Virus record (IMG/VR): IMGVR_UViG_3300021962_007571
Coordinates: 19,526 to 83,525 of that record
DNA from: a virus
Length of the DNA stretch: 64,000 bases
Reading direction: 5' to 3' (one strand)
Shown here: positions 32,096 to 61,842 of the stretch, piece after piece
Position numbering within the stretch: position 1 is the stretch's first letter
Layout of the letters: each line of letters opens with the position of its first letter
Made by a program: the position numbers and the translations under genes
The notes under the pieces: model-generated
Databases searched by the model: none
What the model was told of the DNA's origin: nothing
What the model saw: the letters and a program-made list of their open reading frames with translations, nothing else

Positions 32096-32464
32096 ATGAG
32101 TAGACCTAAGAAAAAAGAAGTAAAATTTACTAAAGATTCTGTATTGTCAATTTTACAGGAAGTATACAATGAGATTGTTGAGCAGAGAAATACTGCTTTA
32201 AGAATCCAAAATAAAATGTTGGCGATGATGAAGGAACCTGAAGATATGACCCTTATTGGACCTGTTATCGAAAAACAACAAAAAATAATCAACGACTGTG
32301 TTGAGAAAAAATTAACTTTATCTAAACTACAATCATCTATTTGGGAAAAAAGTCAAAACGAAAAATCCGATTTTACTATCGATGATTTAAGTGATGATTT
32401 AATGGAAAGTTTAATAAATAAAGACGTTGAGAGGTCTGACGACTCTTATAAATTAGGTAAATAA
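32096..32464 (+). CDS. unknown helical protein, 122 residues
   Basis: Mostly alpha-helical and charged, with heptad-like stretches (ILQEVYNEIVEQRNTALRIQNKM). No catalytic motif. First gene of the tail-like operon; could be an assembly chaperone or small baseplate part. Confidence 0.6.
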   Translation: MSRPKKKEVKFTKDSVLSILQEVYNEIVEQRNTALRIQNKMLAMMKEPEDMTLIGPVIEKQQKIINDCVEKKLTLSKLQSSIWEKSQNEKSDFTIDDLSDDLMESLINKDVERSDDSYKLGK

Positions 32465-41081: not shown

Positions 41082-41336
41082 ATGGAAAACACTCAAGAAA
41101 ACTTAAAAGAACCTATGGGGTTTCTTTTTGACAGTATAGCATATTACAATATTGAAGACTTGGAAAAGTTTGTAACTGATATGACACCTGACCAAGCTCT
41201 TTACTGTGTCATACAAGCCTCAAAATCGGCTTACTCTAAAAACATTTTTGAATTAGAGGAATCTGAAGTTTTATCTAAAGCAATTAGAAAATTATCAATA
41301 CCTAATGTCATTGAAGATGCACCTGTTGAAGAATAG
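41082..41336 (+). CDS. unknown acidic protein, 84 residues
   Basis: Small acidic helical protein (FDSIAYYNIEDLEKFVTDMTPDQALY). No motif recognised. It overlaps the start of the methylglyoxal synthase gene by up to 32 bases, so the two are coupled. A weak -7-like AATATTTG (41070-41077) lies upstream but has no well-placed -33 box. Confidence 0.6.
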   Translation: MENTQENLKEPMGFLFDSIAYYNIEDLEKFVTDMTPDQALYCVIQASKSAYSKNIFELEESEVLSKAIRKLSIPNVIEDAPVEE

Positions 41337-41718
41337 AATTAAGATTGCGGTTATTGCCCACGATGGTAAAAAGGCTGATATGGTTTCATTTATTATGAAA
41401 CGATTAGATTTTTTCACCTCTGAAAATGTTGAAGTTATTGCCACAGGTACTACAGGTAAACATTTGATTCACGCAGGGCTAAGTAAAGTCCATACTGTTT
41501 TAAGTGGTCCTATGGGTGGAGATGCTCAAATTGCGTCTATGATTACTGAGGGTAAGATTGATGCCGTAATATTTTTTATAGACCCTTTAGAAGTACACCC
41601 ACACCAAGTAGACGTTAGTATGTTATTAAGAATTTGTAATGTCCACGACATTCCGCTAGCAACTAATTATAAAACAGGTAAGATGGTTATTGATTGTTTG
41701 GAAAGTTTTCCAAAATAA
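41305..41718 (+). CDS. mgsA: methylglyoxal synthase
   Basis: Converts dihydroxyacetone phosphate to methylglyoxal and phosphate, bypassing lower glycolysis. All catalytic segments of the enzyme are present: IAHDGKKADM (H19, D20), IATGTTG, LSGPMGGDAQI (D73, the general base) and IFFIDPLEVHPHQVDV (D93, H100, D103), with PLATN near the end. Length fits the family (~130-150). The start may be ATG 41305 or ATG 41317; both overlap the upstream gene. IAHDGKKADM resembles Bacteroidetes versions, suggesting acquisition from a host. It would let the phage free phosphate or disturb host carbon flow. Confidence 0.95.
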   Translation: MSLKMHLLKNRIKIAVIAHDGKKADMVSFIMKRLDFFTSENVEVIATGTTGKHLIHAGLSKVHTVLSGPMGGDAQIASMITEGKIDAVIFFIDPLEVHPHQVDVSMLLRICNVHDIPLATNYKTGKMVIDCLESFPK

Positions 41719-43549: not shown

Positions 43550-43661
43550 TGATTGAGGGAAACGATTTAGATACAAATAAATCAATCATAGTTGTTGAGT
43601 CGAAAGAAGCTCAATTAGGACGGAGAAGGAACGATTTAGATACAACCCTCCGTCTTTTTTT
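43550..43661 (+). ncRNA. candidate phage small RNA, ~110 nt, with duplicated 16-nt motif
   Basis: A compact unit: a host-type promoter immediately upstream, three possible hairpins and an intrinsic terminator. Hairpin 1 pairs TGATTGA (43550-43556) with TCAATCA (43582-43588). Hairpin 2 is TTGAGT-C(GAAA)G-(AA)-GCTCAA (43595-43614), closed by a GNRA tetraloop. Hairpin 3 is GACGGAG/CTCCGTC (43619-43654) plus T7. The 16-nt AACGATTTAGATACAA occurs at 43561-43576 and 43630-43645 and lies in the loops of hairpins 1 and 3. An alternative pairing GATTTA/TAAATC competes with hairpin 1. Function unknown: antisense RNA or a decoy for a protein or RNA. Confidence 0.65.
43619..43661 (+). terminator. intrinsic terminator of the small RNA
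   Basis: GACGGAG (43619-43625) pairs with CTCCGTC (43648-43654), extended by GG/CC across an AA bulge, and is followed by seven T. The loop carries the second copy of the 16-nt motif. Confidence 0.8.
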
Positions 43662-44073
43662 ATACCCAAATAACTATTTGGTCTTCACCAACTCTAAAAG
43701 GGTTTTCGTAGGATTCTCGGAATACTGTAACAATTAATAATTTCCACCCAACACCACCTTCATTAATGGCTTTGATTGCAATCGCGATTTCTTTTTCAGG
43801 AGATTTAATTACAAAATAATCATTATTTTTAATGTCACCTATAGCGATTAATTCGGCAATTTTTTTACGACCAAGTTCAATAATATATTTAATTTCGGCG
43901 TTAGATATTTCTTTAGTATTATAATCTTCTATATCAGTTCTAGTTCTTCTATCATATGCGTGCGGACTTCTATCAAGTTCAAATGAATAGGTTACCTCAA
44001 TCTTAGTGATTAAGCTACCTATCTTCTTCTCTAACAATAACTGTTCTCTGATTATTTGACGTAGTCTATTCAT
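43660..44073 (-). CDS. unknown protein with capsid-targeting-like N-terminus
   Basis: 137 residues. MNRLRQIIREQLLLE at the start is an amphipathic helix with I-R-E and L-L-E processing patterns; the rest is a small alpha/beta protein (RTRTDIEDYNTKEI, DYFVIKSPEKEIAIAIKAI). Stands between the major capsid gene and the small RNA, under a TATTTAT motif 5 bases upstream. Likely an internal head protein; fold unknown. Its end lies 1-2 bases from the RNA terminator's T-run on the other strand. Confidence 0.6.
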   Translation of the reverse strand: MNRLRQIIREQLLLEKKIGSLITKIEVTYSFELDRSPHAYDRRTRTDIEDYNTKEISNAEIKYIIELGRKKIAELIAIGDIKNNDYFVIKSPEKEIAIAIKAINEGGVGWKLLIVTVFRESYENPFRVGEDQIVIWV

Positions 44074-48687: not shown

Positions 48688-49134
48688 TTAAACCTTGTAA
48701 GTTTGTTTTTTAGTTAGTGTGAAATTAAACTCTTCATTTTTAATAAAATTACTTTTAATGATTTCATCAGATATTGATTTAATACTGTTTTTTAGTTCTA
48801 ATGATTTGAAATCGTTATCGAGTTCTTTTAGGTATAGATAACATTCTAAATTTAAAAACGATTTTTTATTTAGTTGGATTCCGCTTGACCTCAGGTCCAA
48901 ATCAACAATAAATTTGTCTTCAAAAATATTCGTATTTATTGACTCAAGGACCGAATGTTTTATTGACCTTGATAGGTTATTGACAACCCTGTTAGGAGAT
49001 TCAATTTCAATTTTAGGCTCTGCCCAAGTTTGAATGTTTATGTAAATTGATTTTAAGTTTTTTGAATCTACTGTACCATAATTAACTTTGTAATTTCGGT
49101 ACCCCGAAAGTTTTGCACTTTTCCCTTTTTTCAT
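48688..49134 (-). CDS. unknown protein, 148 residues
   Basis: Basic N-terminus (KKGKSAKLSGYRNYKVNYG), then a beta-rich body with IYINIQTWAEPKIEIESP. No domain recognised. Sits between the protease gene and the divergent bS21 gene. Position suggests a head protein. Confidence 0.6.
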   Translation of the reverse strand: MKKGKSAKLSGYRNYKVNYGTVDSKNLKSIYINIQTWAEPKIEIESPNRVVNNLSRSIKHSVLESINTNIFEDKFIVDLDLRSSGIQLNKKSFLNLECYLYLKELDNDFKSLELKNSIKSISDEIIKSNFIKNEEFNFTLTKKQTYKV

Positions 49135-49184: not shown

Positions 49185-49215
49185 TTTGTGATTAGTCAAA
49201 ATATTTTTATATTTG
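49185..49215 (+). promoter_or_regulatory. host-type promoter (TTTG-N19-TATATTTG) for the bS21 gene
   Basis: TTTG at 49185-49188 and TATATTTG at 49208-49215 with a 19-base spacer, an almost perfect Bacteroidetes promoter. The predicted start lies only ~10 bases before the ATG. Confidence 0.85.
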
Positions 49216-49230
49216 CAGATATTTGTAATT

Positions 49231-49419
49231 ATGTTAATAGTAAAGATAGACCAAAAGACTCCAATTGAGAAAGCTCTTAAAACTTTAAAGAGTAAAGTTA
49301 TTAAGACCAAACAAAATGAGATTTTAAGGGAGAGAAAAGAGTTTGTTAAAAAATCAGTTCAAAAAAGGACTATTAAGAAAAATGCTATTTTTAAACAAAA
49401 AATTAAAGACTCTCATTAA
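49231..49419 (+). CDS. rpsU: ribosomal protein bS21
   Basis: 62 residues, starting MLIVKIDQKTPIEKALKTLK. A gapless alignment with Bacteroidetes bS21 can be read by eye: the N-terminal strand, A15-L16-K17, F38-x-K40-x-S42-V43, K45-R46 and the end KDS. F54 sits where I recall Flavobacterium bS21 having Tyr54, a contact of the sequestered anti-Shine-Dalgarno. The ATG at 49231 is preferred over the TTG at 49213, which overlaps the promoter. No AGGAGG-like sequence precedes it. bS21 joins the 30S subunit near the mRNA exit; a phage copy could replace or compete with the host protein. Has its own host-type promoter and terminator. Confidence 0.88.
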   Translation: MLIVKIDQKTPIEKALKTLKSKVIKTKQNEILRERKEFVKKSVQKRTIKKNAIFKQKIKDSH

Positions 49420-50110
49420 GATTCTTCAACTTTAATAATGACACTGAATCAATAGTGTCATTTTTTATTTTTAAAATAGTCTCATCAATTTTAACTTTAG
49501 TTTCACTATCTGAATTTTTAGATAATTTTTCTAATTTTTCAATGACTAATTCACTTAACACTTCGTATCTATTAGACACTTCTCCTTCAGATAATGTAGA
49601 ATATTTTTTAATCTGTTCTAAGTCAGATTCATTTAGACTTTCTAAATAATTTTTAATTGTTGAATTAGCAACCTCAACCATTTTTTCTAAAGGAATATTG
49701 ATACTTTCAGATTGTATTTCTTTTTTAGAAATAAGAGTATTAATAATACTTTGTCTACTTGTAACAATGTTCTCAATTACAAAAGTATTTTTATTCATTA
49801 CACTATCAATATCTTTGTACTGATTTTCAGATGTAACATCTTTAGTCCAATCAATCAACTTAGAAAGTGATTTTTCAGTAATATTTAATCTTTGGTATAT
49901 GTCAACACATTCCGATAAAAAGTCGTCGGCAAAATCTTTAGAAAAACCTTTCTCTTTAGATAATTCCTCATAAAGATGATAAGCCATATTAATTAGTTCG
50001 TTTTCTAAAACTAACTTTCTAAATGTTTTAATTTCCTTATTAAACGTATTAGTTTTATACGACTCAACTAATTTAGTTTCTATTTTAGATTTTAAGTGTC
50101 CAAATTCCAT
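49403..50110 (-). CDS. unknown helical protein of the head cluster
   Basis: 235 residues from ATG 50110; the ATG at 50137 is also in frame, but a TATTTAT motif (50127-50133) lies between them and favours the later one. Almost entirely helical, charged and Cys-free, ending KLKNLNESL, resembling scaffold/core or chaperone proteins. It lies between portal and protease genes. Overlaps the 3' end of the bS21 gene by 17 bases on the other strand. Confidence 0.6.
   Translation of the reverse strand: MEFGHLKSKIETKLVESYKTNTFNKEIKTFRKLVLENELINMAYHLYEELSKEKGFSKDFADDFLSECVDIYQRLNITEKSLSKLIDWTKDVTSENQYKDIDSVMNKNTFVIENIVTSRQSIINTLISKKEIQSESINIPLEKMVEVANSTIKNYLESLNESDLEQIKKYSTLSEGEVSNRYEVLSELVIEKLEKLSKNSDSETKVKIDETILKIKNDTIDSVSLLKLKNLNESL
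49437..49466 (+). terminator. intrinsic terminator of the bS21 gene
   Basis: AATGACACT/AGTGTCATT stem with an 8-base loop and T-run, 17 bases after the bS21 stop and inside the convergent gene. Confidence 0.8.
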
Positions 50111-50126
50111 ATCAATATTTTTATTA

Positions 50127-50133
50127 ATAAATA
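50127..50133 (-). promoter_or_regulatory. candidate phage late promoter (TATTTAT)
   Basis: Minus-strand TATTTAT 16 bases before ATG 50110; it overlaps the last codons of the portal gene region. Confidence 0.4.
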
Positions 50134-51972
50134 TCAACTATTTAGAAGTTTATCCAAAGCAACTCCCATTTCTCCTAAAGAGTTTCTTCCTTTAGATAAA
50201 TCTATCACTTCTTCCTCAGTTAAAAAGTCATCACTTTCAAGAAGAATGTTAAGATTTTCTCTCTTAGATTCAGGTGTAATTCCAGCTGGTTCACCACCTA
50301 TTGGTTCTTCAGTTGTTGGTGGTTCTTCTCCTCCTCCGATATCACTCATACCACCTAATGAAGATGGTGATTCACCACCTGTGTCCCCACCAGTTTCTGA
50401 ACTTTGTGTTGTTCCTGTAGTACCACCACCGTACAATTTATCTACCGTATCAAATATACCCGTTTTAACGATAACTGTTGGTGTATCTGTCAATTCTTTA
50501 CCAACTGCTCTTTCAAGTCTTTGTTGTTGTAAATCAAGTCTAATTTCCTCGTCAGAGAAACCAAGTACGTGTTTCTTAGCCCAAGATACTGATACAGGTG
50601 CAATACCTTCGATAGCGGTAACTGCGTCCTTGTATAATAATATTTTTTCTTTCCAAACATCAACCTTTAATAAATCCGCTTGTGTAGATGGATTAGTTAA
50701 TGTTAATGTAAAGTTTGATAACTCATCTTCAAATCCTAATAAGAATAAATGTATAATTGCAACTTTGTTCAATTCTTGCAACATACTTTTTTGTATTCTA
50801 TTGATAGTTCTTGCGAAACGAATATCTAATAATGATAAATTTTTACCGTCCCCTACAGATTCCTCAAACCCTAAGTAAGCTTTAGGTATTCTTAATGCGG
50901 TAACTAATTTTTTCTGAATATATTCGATATCCGCAATTTCTGAAAGGTTTTGAGCTCCAGGTAATGTTGTGATTGGGTCTGGCGCCGCCATATCACGAAC
51001 AGGAATAAAGTAATCTTGGTCAACCGCCATTTGATTAAATCTCATATCGACATTACCAGTTTTACTGTCTACAACTTGGTCTCTTTTAAATTTATTGGCA
51101 ACACGTTGTACATATGGTTCAACATCCTTATCATCCATATTACCGACGAAGACCTTGAAGATTCTTCTCTCAGGTGCACGTGATGTACGATAAATTAACA
51201 TCGCATCTTCAGATAATAAAAGTTGTTTCCAAATACGTCTTGCTTTTTCTAACATAGAGGTACCGTAAGGAAGTTTTCTATCGTCACCTAACAACCTAAA
51301 ATGGGCAATCTCCCAAGTGTTAAATTCCATATCCCTATTCTTCCAACTAAATCTTAAGGCTTTTTGTTCAGATTCATTATTGTCTAAATTAGATTTACCT
51401 TTCATTCCTCTTTCAACCCTTTCAATTTCAATGTTTGGTAATTGCATACAACCAACAACACCTTTTTCAGGGTCTAATTTTAAGTAAACAAAATTATCAC
51501 CATATTTGCAAGTGTTTCTTGTCCACATCGCTAAATTGGTATTGATATCTAAATTATTATTAAATAAATCTGTTAATACAGATTTAATTCTTTTTGATTC
51601 TGAATAGATTTGTAATATGTAACCGTTTTGGTCTGCCGTTGTTGATTCTTCAGCATATATGTCTAAAGCTGCCGATATTTCAGGGGTATATTCCATAGAT
51701 TCATAATCATAGTATGATGCCAATCTTGTTGGTTCAAAGTAAACCCCCTGTGTGTATAAATTATTCTCAATCTTAGTCCATTGGTTTGCTAAATAAACGG
51801 TTTGTTGTGCCTGTAATTTAGCCTTTTCGTATTCCTGTTGACTTGTAGTCTTAAGTAATTCTTTCTTATCATATCTAAAAGTTGGGTAGTCCTGATTCAA
51901 TAATGAATTGGGACCAAAGGTCTGTGATAACCTTTGCCAAACCGTTAAATTGTTATTTTTATTATTTTCCAT
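50134..51972 (-). CDS. portal protein (gp20-like)
   Basis: 612 residues, forming the dodecameric portal through which DNA enters the head. Recognisable from YYDYESMEYTPEISAALDIYAEEST (N-terminal wing), AHFRLLGDDRKLPYGTSMLEKAR, YRTSRAPERRIFKVFVGN and IPKAYLGFEES, all characteristic of T4 gp20 relatives. The ~100-residue C-terminal part is Gly/Pro/Glu-rich and disordered (GGTTGTTQSSETGG), longer than usual. Order terminase-portal-protease-scaffold-capsid follows T4, without tail genes in between. Confidence 0.92.
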   Translation of the reverse strand: MENNKNNNLTVWQRLSQTFGPNSLLNQDYPTFRYDKKELLKTTSQQEYEKAKLQAQQTVYLANQWTKIENNLYTQGVYFEPTRLASYYDYESMEYTPEISAALDIYAEESTTADQNGYILQIYSESKRIKSVLTDLFNNNLDINTNLAMWTRNTCKYGDNFVYLKLDPEKGVVGCMQLPNIEIERVERGMKGKSNLDNNESEQKALRFSWKNRDMEFNTWEIAHFRLLGDDRKLPYGTSMLEKARRIWKQLLLSEDAMLIYRTSRAPERRIFKVFVGNMDDKDVEPYVQRVANKFKRDQVVDSKTGNVDMRFNQMAVDQDYFIPVRDMAAPDPITTLPGAQNLSEIADIEYIQKKLVTALRIPKAYLGFEESVGDGKNLSLLDIRFARTINRIQKSMLQELNKVAIIHLFLLGFEDELSNFTLTLTNPSTQADLLKVDVWKEKILLYKDAVTAIEGIAPVSVSWAKKHVLGFSDEEIRLDLQQQRLERAVGKELTDTPTVIVKTGIFDTVDKLYGGGTTGTTQSSETGGDTGGESPSSLGGMSDIGGGEEPPTTEEPIGGEPAGITPESKRENLNILLESDDFLTEEEVIDLSKGRNSLGEMGVALDKLLNS

Positions 51973-57823: not shown

Positions 57824-58579
57824 TTAGTCGTTTATCTTATTTTCCATAGATAAACGTTTATTTAGTAATTCATTTTCAAAATCAAACAATTTTTCAATAT
57901 AACCATTTCGTCTAAGAACTTTAAAAACTAAGTTTTCTGTTGAGTATTCCCCTCCTCTATCTAATCCACATTGTCTAAATTTTTTAATCTTGTCTTTATA
58001 TTTACGAACCATTTTTTTTGCATCATCTATATCTTCATCTGATGCGTTTTCAATTACGTCATCAATTGTTTTCATCCACATATTAGATTTTTGTGTAATT
58101 TCTTCTTTATTAATTTCCACGTTTTCTTTTTTTGGTTTATTTAACCACTCATCAAACAATATAGAGTATACACCAGCACTTTTATGTCTAGGTTCATCCT
58201 CATCTTGAGCATACAATTCAACATCATAATTTTTTATTTTAATGTTAAATCTTGTATTAAATAACATTTTTTTTAAATTAAATAATTTTTCGTATAACTC
58301 TTTGGTACCTTTAGGAAATTGTTTATAATCTACTAATAAGTGTAAGTCAAAATCTGAATATTTAGACCAATTATAGTTAGTTAACGAACCTGTTAAAATA
58401 ATATCGCTAACAAATAAGGGGACATCTAAAAATTCTATGAATTGGTAAGCAATTTCTAAAAGTTGTTCTCTTATCTCAGGTTTTATTGTTTCATCACCTT
58501 TTTCAGATAAAATCCAAATCGCAGGATTTAGTTCATCCTGTAATAAAAAACTTTTTAAAATATTTTGATTAGACTCCAT
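57824..58579 (-). CDS. nucleotidyltransferase-fold protein
   Basis: 251 residues. The NTase signature is clear: LTGSLTNYNWSKYSDFDLHLLVD (G64-S65, D76, D78) and a third acidic strand NYDVELYAQDED. This is the fold of MNT/ANT-type minimal nucleotidyltransferases, which attach nucleotides to proteins, RNA or small molecules. The C-terminal helical part (KKMVRKYKDKIKKF) may hold the partner. Substrate unknown. TATTTAT lies 4 bases upstream, so it is likely a late gene. Confidence 0.75.
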   Translation of the reverse strand: MESNQNILKSFLLQDELNPAIWILSEKGDETIKPEIREQLLEIAYQFIEFLDVPLFVSDIILTGSLTNYNWSKYSDFDLHLLVDYKQFPKGTKELYEKLFNLKKMLFNTRFNIKIKNYDVELYAQDEDEPRHKSAGVYSILFDEWLNKPKKENVEINKEEITQKSNMWMKTIDDVIENASDEDIDDAKKMVRKYKDKIKKFRQCGLDRGGEYSTENLVFKVLRRNGYIEKLFDFENELLNKRLSMENKIND

Positions 58580-58857: not shown

Positions 58858-59154
58858 TTAATTAGGATTGTTTAATGGAGTTTCATCATCAATTTGCTTC
58901 ATCTCTCTCTTAAGATAATCTACAAACTCGTTATGGTCAATATCAAAATACATTCTAATCTCATTAAATAATCTATTATGTTCTTGACTAAATTGTTGAT
59001 AATAAGCCATTATATCATTTGGATAATATGGCGGTTTTTCTAAATCCTCCTCTGACCATCCTTCTCTTTTGAAACAATCTCTGAGTTTACGGTATATAGA
59101 TTGTAATTCTTTATCCGCATTTAGTTGTTTAATATATTTTTCAAAAGGTCTCAT
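58858..59154 (-). CDS. unknown protein, 98 residues
   Basis: Helical, charged small protein with aromatic stretches (YYPNDIMAYYQQF). No domain recognised. Follows a TATTTAT motif by 4 bases and precedes the KTSC gene. Confidence 0.6.
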   Translation of the reverse strand: MRPFEKYIKQLNADKELQSIYRKLRDCFKREGWSEEDLEKPPYYPNDIMAYYQQFSQEHNRLFNEIRMYFDIDHNEFVDYLKREMKQIDDETPLNNPN

Positions 59155-59817: not shown

Positions 59818-61842
59818 ATGATAGAGTCAATGGATAACGAAAACCAAAAAGAAAACAAAAGAACCTCAGATTCATCAACACCCGCGTTAGACAATTTTAG
59901 TCGTGATTTGATTAAGTTGGCGGAACAAGGTAAATTAGACCCTGTTGTTGGTAGAGAAAAAGAAATTTTGCGTATCGCACAAATTCTTTCTCGTAGAAAG
60001 AAAAATAACCCAATTATCATAGGGGAACCAGGTTGTGGTAAAACCGCAATTGTTGAAGGTTTAGCTATGAAAATATACGAGGGTGATTGTCCAAGGAATC
60101 TAGCGGATAAAAGAATCTTATCTTTAGATATGACATCTATTGTTGCTGGTACAAAATATCGAGGACAATTTGAGGAAAGAATGAAAGTTGTAATTGAAGA
60201 ATTACAAGCTAACCCTGATATTATCATTTTTATTGATGAAATTCACACCATTGTAGGTGCGGGTAACTCATCAGGTTCATTAGACGCTTCTAATATCTTT
60301 AAACCTGCACTTGCTCGTGGTGAAATCCAATGTGTTGGAGCAACTACTTTAGACGAGTACCGTAAAAACTTTGAGAAGGATGGGGCTTTGGAGCGTCGTT
60401 TCCAAAAAGTAATTGTAGATGGGGCAACTAAAGAAGAGACTTTGGTTATTCTACAAAACCTAAAAGATAGATATGAGAATTTCCATAAAGTGTCTTTTAG
60501 TGATGAAGTACTTCAAACTTGTGTTAATCTAGCTGAAAGATATATTACAGATAGAGAATTCCCCGATAAGGCAATTGATATCTTAGATGAGGTTGGGGCT
60601 CGTAGTCAGGTCGATATTAAATTACCTGAAATTATTGAAGAGTTGAAATTGAAAGCTCTTGATATTAAAAATCAAAAGGTTGAGGTTGTTAAAAGTCAGA
60701 AGTACGAAGAGGCTGCTCAACTTAGAGATAAAGAACGAAAAATTACTTCTAAACTTGAGGAAGAGAAAAAGAAATTTGAGGATAGTCTAATCACCAAAAA
60801 GAAAGAAGTTAGTTTAGATTTAGTCTATGACGTAGTTTCAAATATGACTAAAATCCCAGTTAGTAAACTAAATGCTGACGATACCAAAGCGTTAGTTGAC
60901 TTAGACTCTAATCTAAACAAAAAGGTTATTGGTCAACCTGAAGCGGTTAAACGTATTGCAAAATCAATCCGTAGAAATCGTTTGGGAATTAAAGACCCAA
61001 ATCGCCCAATCGGTTCATTTATTTTCTTAGGGTCAACTGGTGTTGGTAAAACTTACTTGGCGAAACAATTGGCAAGAGAAGTGTTTGGTAGTGAAGATAA
61101 CCTTATCCGTGTGGATATGTCTGAGTACCAAGAGAAACACACCGTATCTCGTTTAATTGGAGCACCTCCAGGATATGTAGGATATGATGAGGGCGGACAA
61201 TTAACGGAACAAGTTAAAAACAAACCTTATTCTGTAATCTTGTTTGATGAGATTGAGAAAGCAAACAAAGATATCTTCTCATCTTTACTTCAAATGTTAG
61301 ATGATGGTCATATGACTGATGGATTAGGTCGTAAGATTAACTTCAAAAACTGTATCATCATTATGACATCAAACTTGGGAGTTAAAAAATTACAGGACTT
61401 TGGTAATGGTGTTGGGTTTTCAAATTCAAACAACGCCTTCGTTAATGAAGAGTTAAGAAAACAAACTCTACAAAAAGAATTGAAGAAATTCTTTGCACCT
61501 GAGTTCTTAAATCGTATTGACGATACCATCATATTCAATAGTCTTGGACAAAACGATGTTGATAAGATTGTTGCAATTGAATTAGATAAGTTAAAAGTTC
61601 GTTTAGATAATATGAAGTATAATATCACTTTTGATGAGTCAATTTCTAAAATGATTTCTAAAGTAGGATTTGATGAAATGTATGGAGCTCGTCCTTTAAA
61701 AAGAGCGATTCAAGACAAAGTGGAAGACTTCATTTCTGAAGAAGTTCTTAAAGGAAATCTTAAAGAAGAAGTTAAGTATGTCCTAATAACCGAAGATGGT
61801 GAAAATGTAACCATCCAATTTAAAAATAAAAAAGGGGTTTAA
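59818..61842 (+). CDS. clpC: ClpC-like AAA+ unfoldase lacking the N-domain
   Basis: 674 residues. First AAA+ domain: GEPGCGKTA (69-76) and [13 protein letters not shown]; middle domain with a UVR-type helix ([15 protein letters not shown], ~290-305); second AAA+: GSTGVGKT (405-412), [10 protein letters not shown] and NRIDD. V532-G533-F534 sits where ClpC/ClpX-type partners carry the ClpP-docking tripeptide, so the enzyme may feed host ClpP. It starts directly at DNFSRDL, without the ~140-residue Clp_N domain that binds substrates and adaptors. Phage ClpC-type proteins are unusual; target probably host or phage regulators. Confidence 0.9.

Follow-up and report, generated by a model that had tools for sequence, protein, structure and literature searches.

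The 64-kb stretch of DNA that we analyzed (the window; bases 19526-83525 of an 83,525-base IMG/VR virus record) comes from a T4-like phage and carries a gene for ribosomal protein bS21 of the kind found in T4-like Bacteroidota myoviruses. On balance, and with moderate confidence, we favor the view that this protein replaces the bS21 of the host, keeps the anti-Shine-Dalgarno (anti-SD) sequence of the ribosome hidden, and is synthesized blind to the feedback acting on the host gene. Genes of this kind, and their position on the opposite strand within the head cluster, were described in 2022 by Chen et al. (PMC9723584), and together with the results of McNutt et al. (PMC9976891) this means that the main frame of our finding is in print. 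Promoter, leader, and SD, for which we found no analysis in Chen et al., are examined here.

The bS21 open reading frame (ORF) spans 49231-49416 on the plus strand, with its stop codon at 49417-49419. The gene and its immediate neighbors are as follows.

49231..49419, plus strand: bS21 gene, 62 aa plus stop, with Phe54 and the phage-type signature S21-V23-I24-K27-Q28-N29
48688..49134, minus strand: gpB, the divergent neighbor, 148 aa, without family match, conserved in the cluster
49403..50137, minus strand: gpA, the convergent neighbor, 244 aa, its 3' end overlapping that of bS21 by 17 bases

The first-pass annotation had called a 62-residue bS21 gene with Phe in place of Tyr54, and both calls are borne out. 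The ORF matches Pfam PF01165 (Ribosomal_S21) at 29.4 bits (cut-off 27) over profile positions 2-52 of 55, and its top match in the PDB is 7jil_z, the bS21 chain of the F. johnsoniae ribosome (7JIL; E 4e-5). Alignment to this Bacteroidetes protein upholds the bS21 identity and places Phe54 opposite Tyr54. The phage protein belongs to the same family as the product of F. johnsoniae rpsU (PMC9976891, 7JIL), with which it is colinear and gapless over 61 residues, and shares with it an aromatic residue at the position that stacks on the 16S tail, but identity is ~42%, residues 21-29 are changed, and the phage gene has no extended SD. In a tree of only 64 columns, the window falls inside the phage set, separate from hosts, within an 11-row phage clade with support of 97/93. 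The ATG start is common to all listed relatives; an in-frame TTG upstream, at 49213, is not credible as a start and sits within a promoter box. PHROGs returned no match for bS21, gpA, or gpB, Rfam and tRNA searches of the 64-kb window found nothing, and a search of an annotated phage collection yielded four records only, all uncultured huge phages without annotation.

bS21 is the sole plus-strand gene amid a minus-strand head cluster, as had been noticed at first sight, the cluster being recognizable by its Gp23 capsid, S77 prohead protease, Gp20 portal, and terminase genes. This is the arrangement of the Bacteroidetes myoviruses described by Chen et al. (PMC9723584), in which an opposite-strand bS21 gene lies between terminase/portal and prohead protease/capsid genes, accompanied by two flanking hypotheticals, the signature block, an aromatic residue 54, and a Clp gene. 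Among 136 loci with both protease and portal (a count in which some contigs are represented by two loci), bS21 is present in 124, on the opposite strand in 124/124. It is missing from the other 12, which fall in about six groups, and is therefore an accessory gene. Two bS21-less loci, L334 and L336, have a protease 90% identical to that of the window, and a 261-kb contig without bS21 at the head-cluster site has none elsewhere on the contig. That some close relatives do without bS21 counts against our preferred explanation. A Clp-type (ClpA/ClpC-like) double AAA+ ATPase is encoded at 59818-61842 (+), preceded by a host-type TATCTTTG box. All 12 contigs that are long enough have this gene 10-12 kb downstream of bS21. 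Since it is present in bS21-less phages too, it is a backbone gene, and we reject it as a candidate for the protease that McNutt et al. envisaged as removing bS21. Elsewhere in the window, 41305-41718 (+) encodes a small protein with an MGS-like domain (PF02142).

Relatives of the protein were gathered by scanning viral contigs, which gave 90 distinct leader/protein pairs, or 89 phage pairs once a host rpsU (L305, see below) was taken out. Residue 54 is aromatic throughout these 89 (Tyr in 81, His in 6, Phe in 2). Both Phe54 rows belong to the lineage of the window, which comprises seven contigs (the window, L002, L003, L004, L005, L006, and the partial L009), so that Phe54 is not a sequencing error. 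It is absent from 80 Flavobacterium-type loci (all Tyr) and from 70 wider Bacteroidota loci that were among the best-scoring matches in 395 genomes (23 Tyr, 47 Arg). Chen et al. report that residue 54 is aromatic in every copy (Tyr in 54/61, a few His, one Phe; PMC9723584); to that single Phe54 we add its fixation in a seven-contig lineage. At the level of the alignment, then, the phage protein has the aromatic residue 54 of the anti-SD-sequestering, Bacteroidia type, whose ring is predicted to stack on A1534.

The first-pass annotation had read Phe54 as a change that could alter anti-SD exposure, which would open ribosomes to SD pairing. Sequestration might be weakened by loss of the hydroxyl, and in F. 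johnsoniae the Y54A substitution frees SD translation, raising that of an SD reporter ~3-fold (PMC9976891). The Phe54 substitution, however, keeps the aromatic ring, as every phage copy does, it occurs in one lineage only, and there is no strong SD in the window's phage to profit from it, so that we consider such an opening highly improbable. Judged by sequence, the change to Phe54 is rare and conservative, is fixed within one lineage, and leaves the ring in place. Since residue 54 is always aromatic, Phe54 is not evidence for an exposed anti-SD, and the data offer no reason for expecting one.

SD strength was scored as the energy with which a start region pairs to the 16S tail, which we took to have the Flavobacterium sequence, and an SD was called extended below -13 kcal/mol. 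The strongest pairing in the bS21 start region of the window is -1.5 kcal/mol, in keeping with the absence of an SD before the ATG noted at the outset. Across the 89 phage pairs the median is -1.5 and the strongest -8.8 kcal/mol, and no leader (0/89) has an extended SD; the strongest pairings lack a GGAGG-like core and were therefore judged to arise by chance. In contrast, Flavobacterium-type rpsU genes score -19.6 to -24.7 kcal/mol in 80/80 loci. A contrast of this kind across the group was not found in the literature consulted. McNutt et al. 2023 (PMC9976891) showed that F. johnsoniae rpsU controls its own expression through an extended SD, which is read by bS21-less ribosomes. Since it has no SD, the phage gene is probably outside the rpsU feedback of its host.

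The proposed escape from host autoregulation is supported by the contrast with Flavobacterium but depends on the host. In the wider sample (70 loci that are among the top-scoring matches in 395 genomes rather than chosen at random), 14/23 Tyr54-type rpsU genes pass -13 kcal/mol and 9/23 do not. Escape therefore needs a Flavobacterium-like host, and the phage may infect a host that has no such feedback to evade. The missing SD may also be passive, because every gene of the phage is SD-less. One candidate for an independent phage acquisition without SD, L305, was rejected: it is a host rpsU, with a leader identical to that in the host genome L566, and lies next to a XerC-like recombinase and a hibernation-factor-like gene (names from ORF inspection). 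L305:3001-3198 (His54, on a contig filed as viral) and L566 (Tyr54) represent a lineage of Bacteroidota host rpsU genes that lack the extended SD.

Whether the phage protein favors phage over host mRNAs was also weighed. The preference for phage mRNA suggested by the first-pass annotation is not supported in the form of SD pairing, as a search across the genes of the window's phage found no strong SD (strongest, -7.8 kcal/mol), so that a freed anti-SD would not help phage mRNAs. Another route to specialized ribosomes would be the changed N-terminal half (S21, V23, I24, K27-N29). Its KVIKTKQN block hardly varies among phages and is unlike that of hosts at most positions; Chen et al. describe divergence at residues 21-28 and propose specialization through residues facing the mRNA path (PMC9723584). 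However, the start regions of the phage are SD-less and A/T-rich by sequence, and the mRNAs of the host likewise lack an SD (McNutt et al., PMC9976891), which leaves no known feature for a specialized ribosome to choose by. We regard specialization of this kind as unlikely.

The elements around the bS21 gene, several of them putative, are as follows.

49185..49188, plus strand: TTTG, a possible -33 box, 19 bases upstream of the -7 box, poorly conserved
49195..49201, minus strand: GTCAAAA on the plus strand (TTTTGAC on the minus), promoter element of the divergent head gene, not of bS21
49208..49216, plus strand: TATATTTGC, a candidate host-type -7 box (TANNTTTG), kept in the clade of the window, where two N positions vary
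49218..49230, plus strand: GATATTTGTAATT, running up to the ATG and, of all elements in phage bS21 leaders, the one conserved most widely; other clades have RTATTTAT here, which resembles a late promoter
49437..49462, plus strand: intrinsic terminator of bS21, within the 3'-terminal coding sequence of the convergent gpA (49403-50137)

A near-perfect host-type promoter had been claimed for the gene. Its boxes, TTTG (49185) and TATATTTGC (49208), are present, but the -33 box is poorly kept and a general promoter scan gave no excess. Boxes of the form TANNTTTG, a possible sign of a Bacteroidota host, stand before some genes of the phage, but their number is not above shuffles (6 versus 3.5). The -7-like box is kept only in the clade of the window and one other leader group. 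Within that clade the TA..TTTG pattern is kept while its N positions read TA, GT, TT, or AG, and in the bS21-less L336 a TATCTTTGC occurs at the same offset as the bS21 -7 box. Conservation of the pattern with varying Ns, together with the L336 box, favors a working host-type box in the clade of the window, where such a promoter is plausible. The L336 box itself looks like the remnant of a lost gene. GTCAAAA was rejected as a -33 box for bS21, since most bS21-less phages keep TTTTGACA in the same junction; because it is kept without bS21 and lies at a near-constant spacing of 18-19 from an element on the side of the divergent gene (23-26 from the bS21 box), we assigned it to that gene.

In the wider group it is GATATTTGTAAT(AT), immediately 5' of the ATG (49218-49230), that is conserved. 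Among the 90 leaders, 31 have GATATTTG, 21 have RTATTTAT, and 11 have a similar element. RTATTTAT also precedes 21/83 called starts of the phage (those of the window plus the remainder of the record), versus 2.0 in shuffles (maximum 7 of 500), for example before 43660-44073(-), 57824-58579(-), 58858-59154(-), and 32096-32464(+), and TATTTAT is the most enriched 7-mer before phage starts. RTATTTAT resembles the T4 late promoter core in reverse complement and is probably a late-promoter motif. In five other phage genes the motif lies 4-5 bases ahead of the start codon, a gap that suggests leaderless late mRNAs. Spacings of T4 late and Bacteroidota -7 elements to the start site underlie our estimate of where transcription begins. 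If the motif acts like either of these, transcription would start on the ATG or only a few bases from it, and a start from the host-type box would fall ~9-12 bases before it. The bS21 leader, which is unstructured, is thus probably 0-12 nt long, and a leader of that length from either promoter would leave no room for an extended SD.

The terminator attributed to the gene at the outset is confirmed. The hairpin at 49437-49462, followed by T, is significant (1 found versus 0.2 in shuffles; -10.5 kcal/mol, z -3.5), and the sister lineage L006 retains it, differing by a single change in the loop. It occupies the last codons of gpA; the bS21-less L334 encodes nearly the same peptide there but has no hairpin, so that mostly synonymous differences create the hairpin of the window.

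Own promoter and terminator, along with the conserved aromatic residue 54, would also suit a gene that merely tops up an exchangeable protein, so that 30S subunits are complete after host shut-off, with specificity unchanged and no role in feedback escape. Loss of bS21 does reduce SD-less initiation (McNutt et al. 2023, PMC9976891). Such a supply role leaves the fixed phage-specific signature block unexplained, and we hold it to be a possible but less than probable account.

Under our preferred explanation, phage bS21 would be expressed from a promoter of its own at about the same time as the head genes, and the late-promoter-like leader of most relatives is consistent with the late expression measured by Chen et al. 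(PMC9723584). The protein would take the place of host bS21 on the 30S platform. Phe54 would keep stacking on the 16S tail, so that the anti-SD would remain hidden and SD-less initiation, used by phage and host mRNAs, would be retained. Since the bS21 mRNA has no extended SD, its synthesis would be blind to the feedback controlling Flavobacterium-type rpsU. Ribosomes filled with phage bS21 may read as replete, host rpsU would be held low, and the phage protein would consequently win the ribosome slot. We put forward only tentatively the full circuit, in which a near-leaderless, SD-free phage bS21 fills ribosomes, switches off the SD-controlled host rpsU, and becomes the main supply. A precedent is the phage-encoded bS21 of pelagiphage HTVC008M, which enters E. 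coli ribosomes (PMC6375957). It also rendered them nearly inactive (PMC6375957), so that simple replacement is not guaranteed. Unlike in the window's phage, the host of HTVC008M is alphaproteobacterial, and its authors trace the gene to that host (PMC6375957), which points to a separate acquisition.

The natural presence and absence of bS21 in close relatives offers a ready comparison. Phages carry bS21 more often than any other ribosomal protein, and SD-less phage copies set against the extreme SD of Flavobacterium rpsU raise the question of whether phage bS21 both evades and triggers host feedback.
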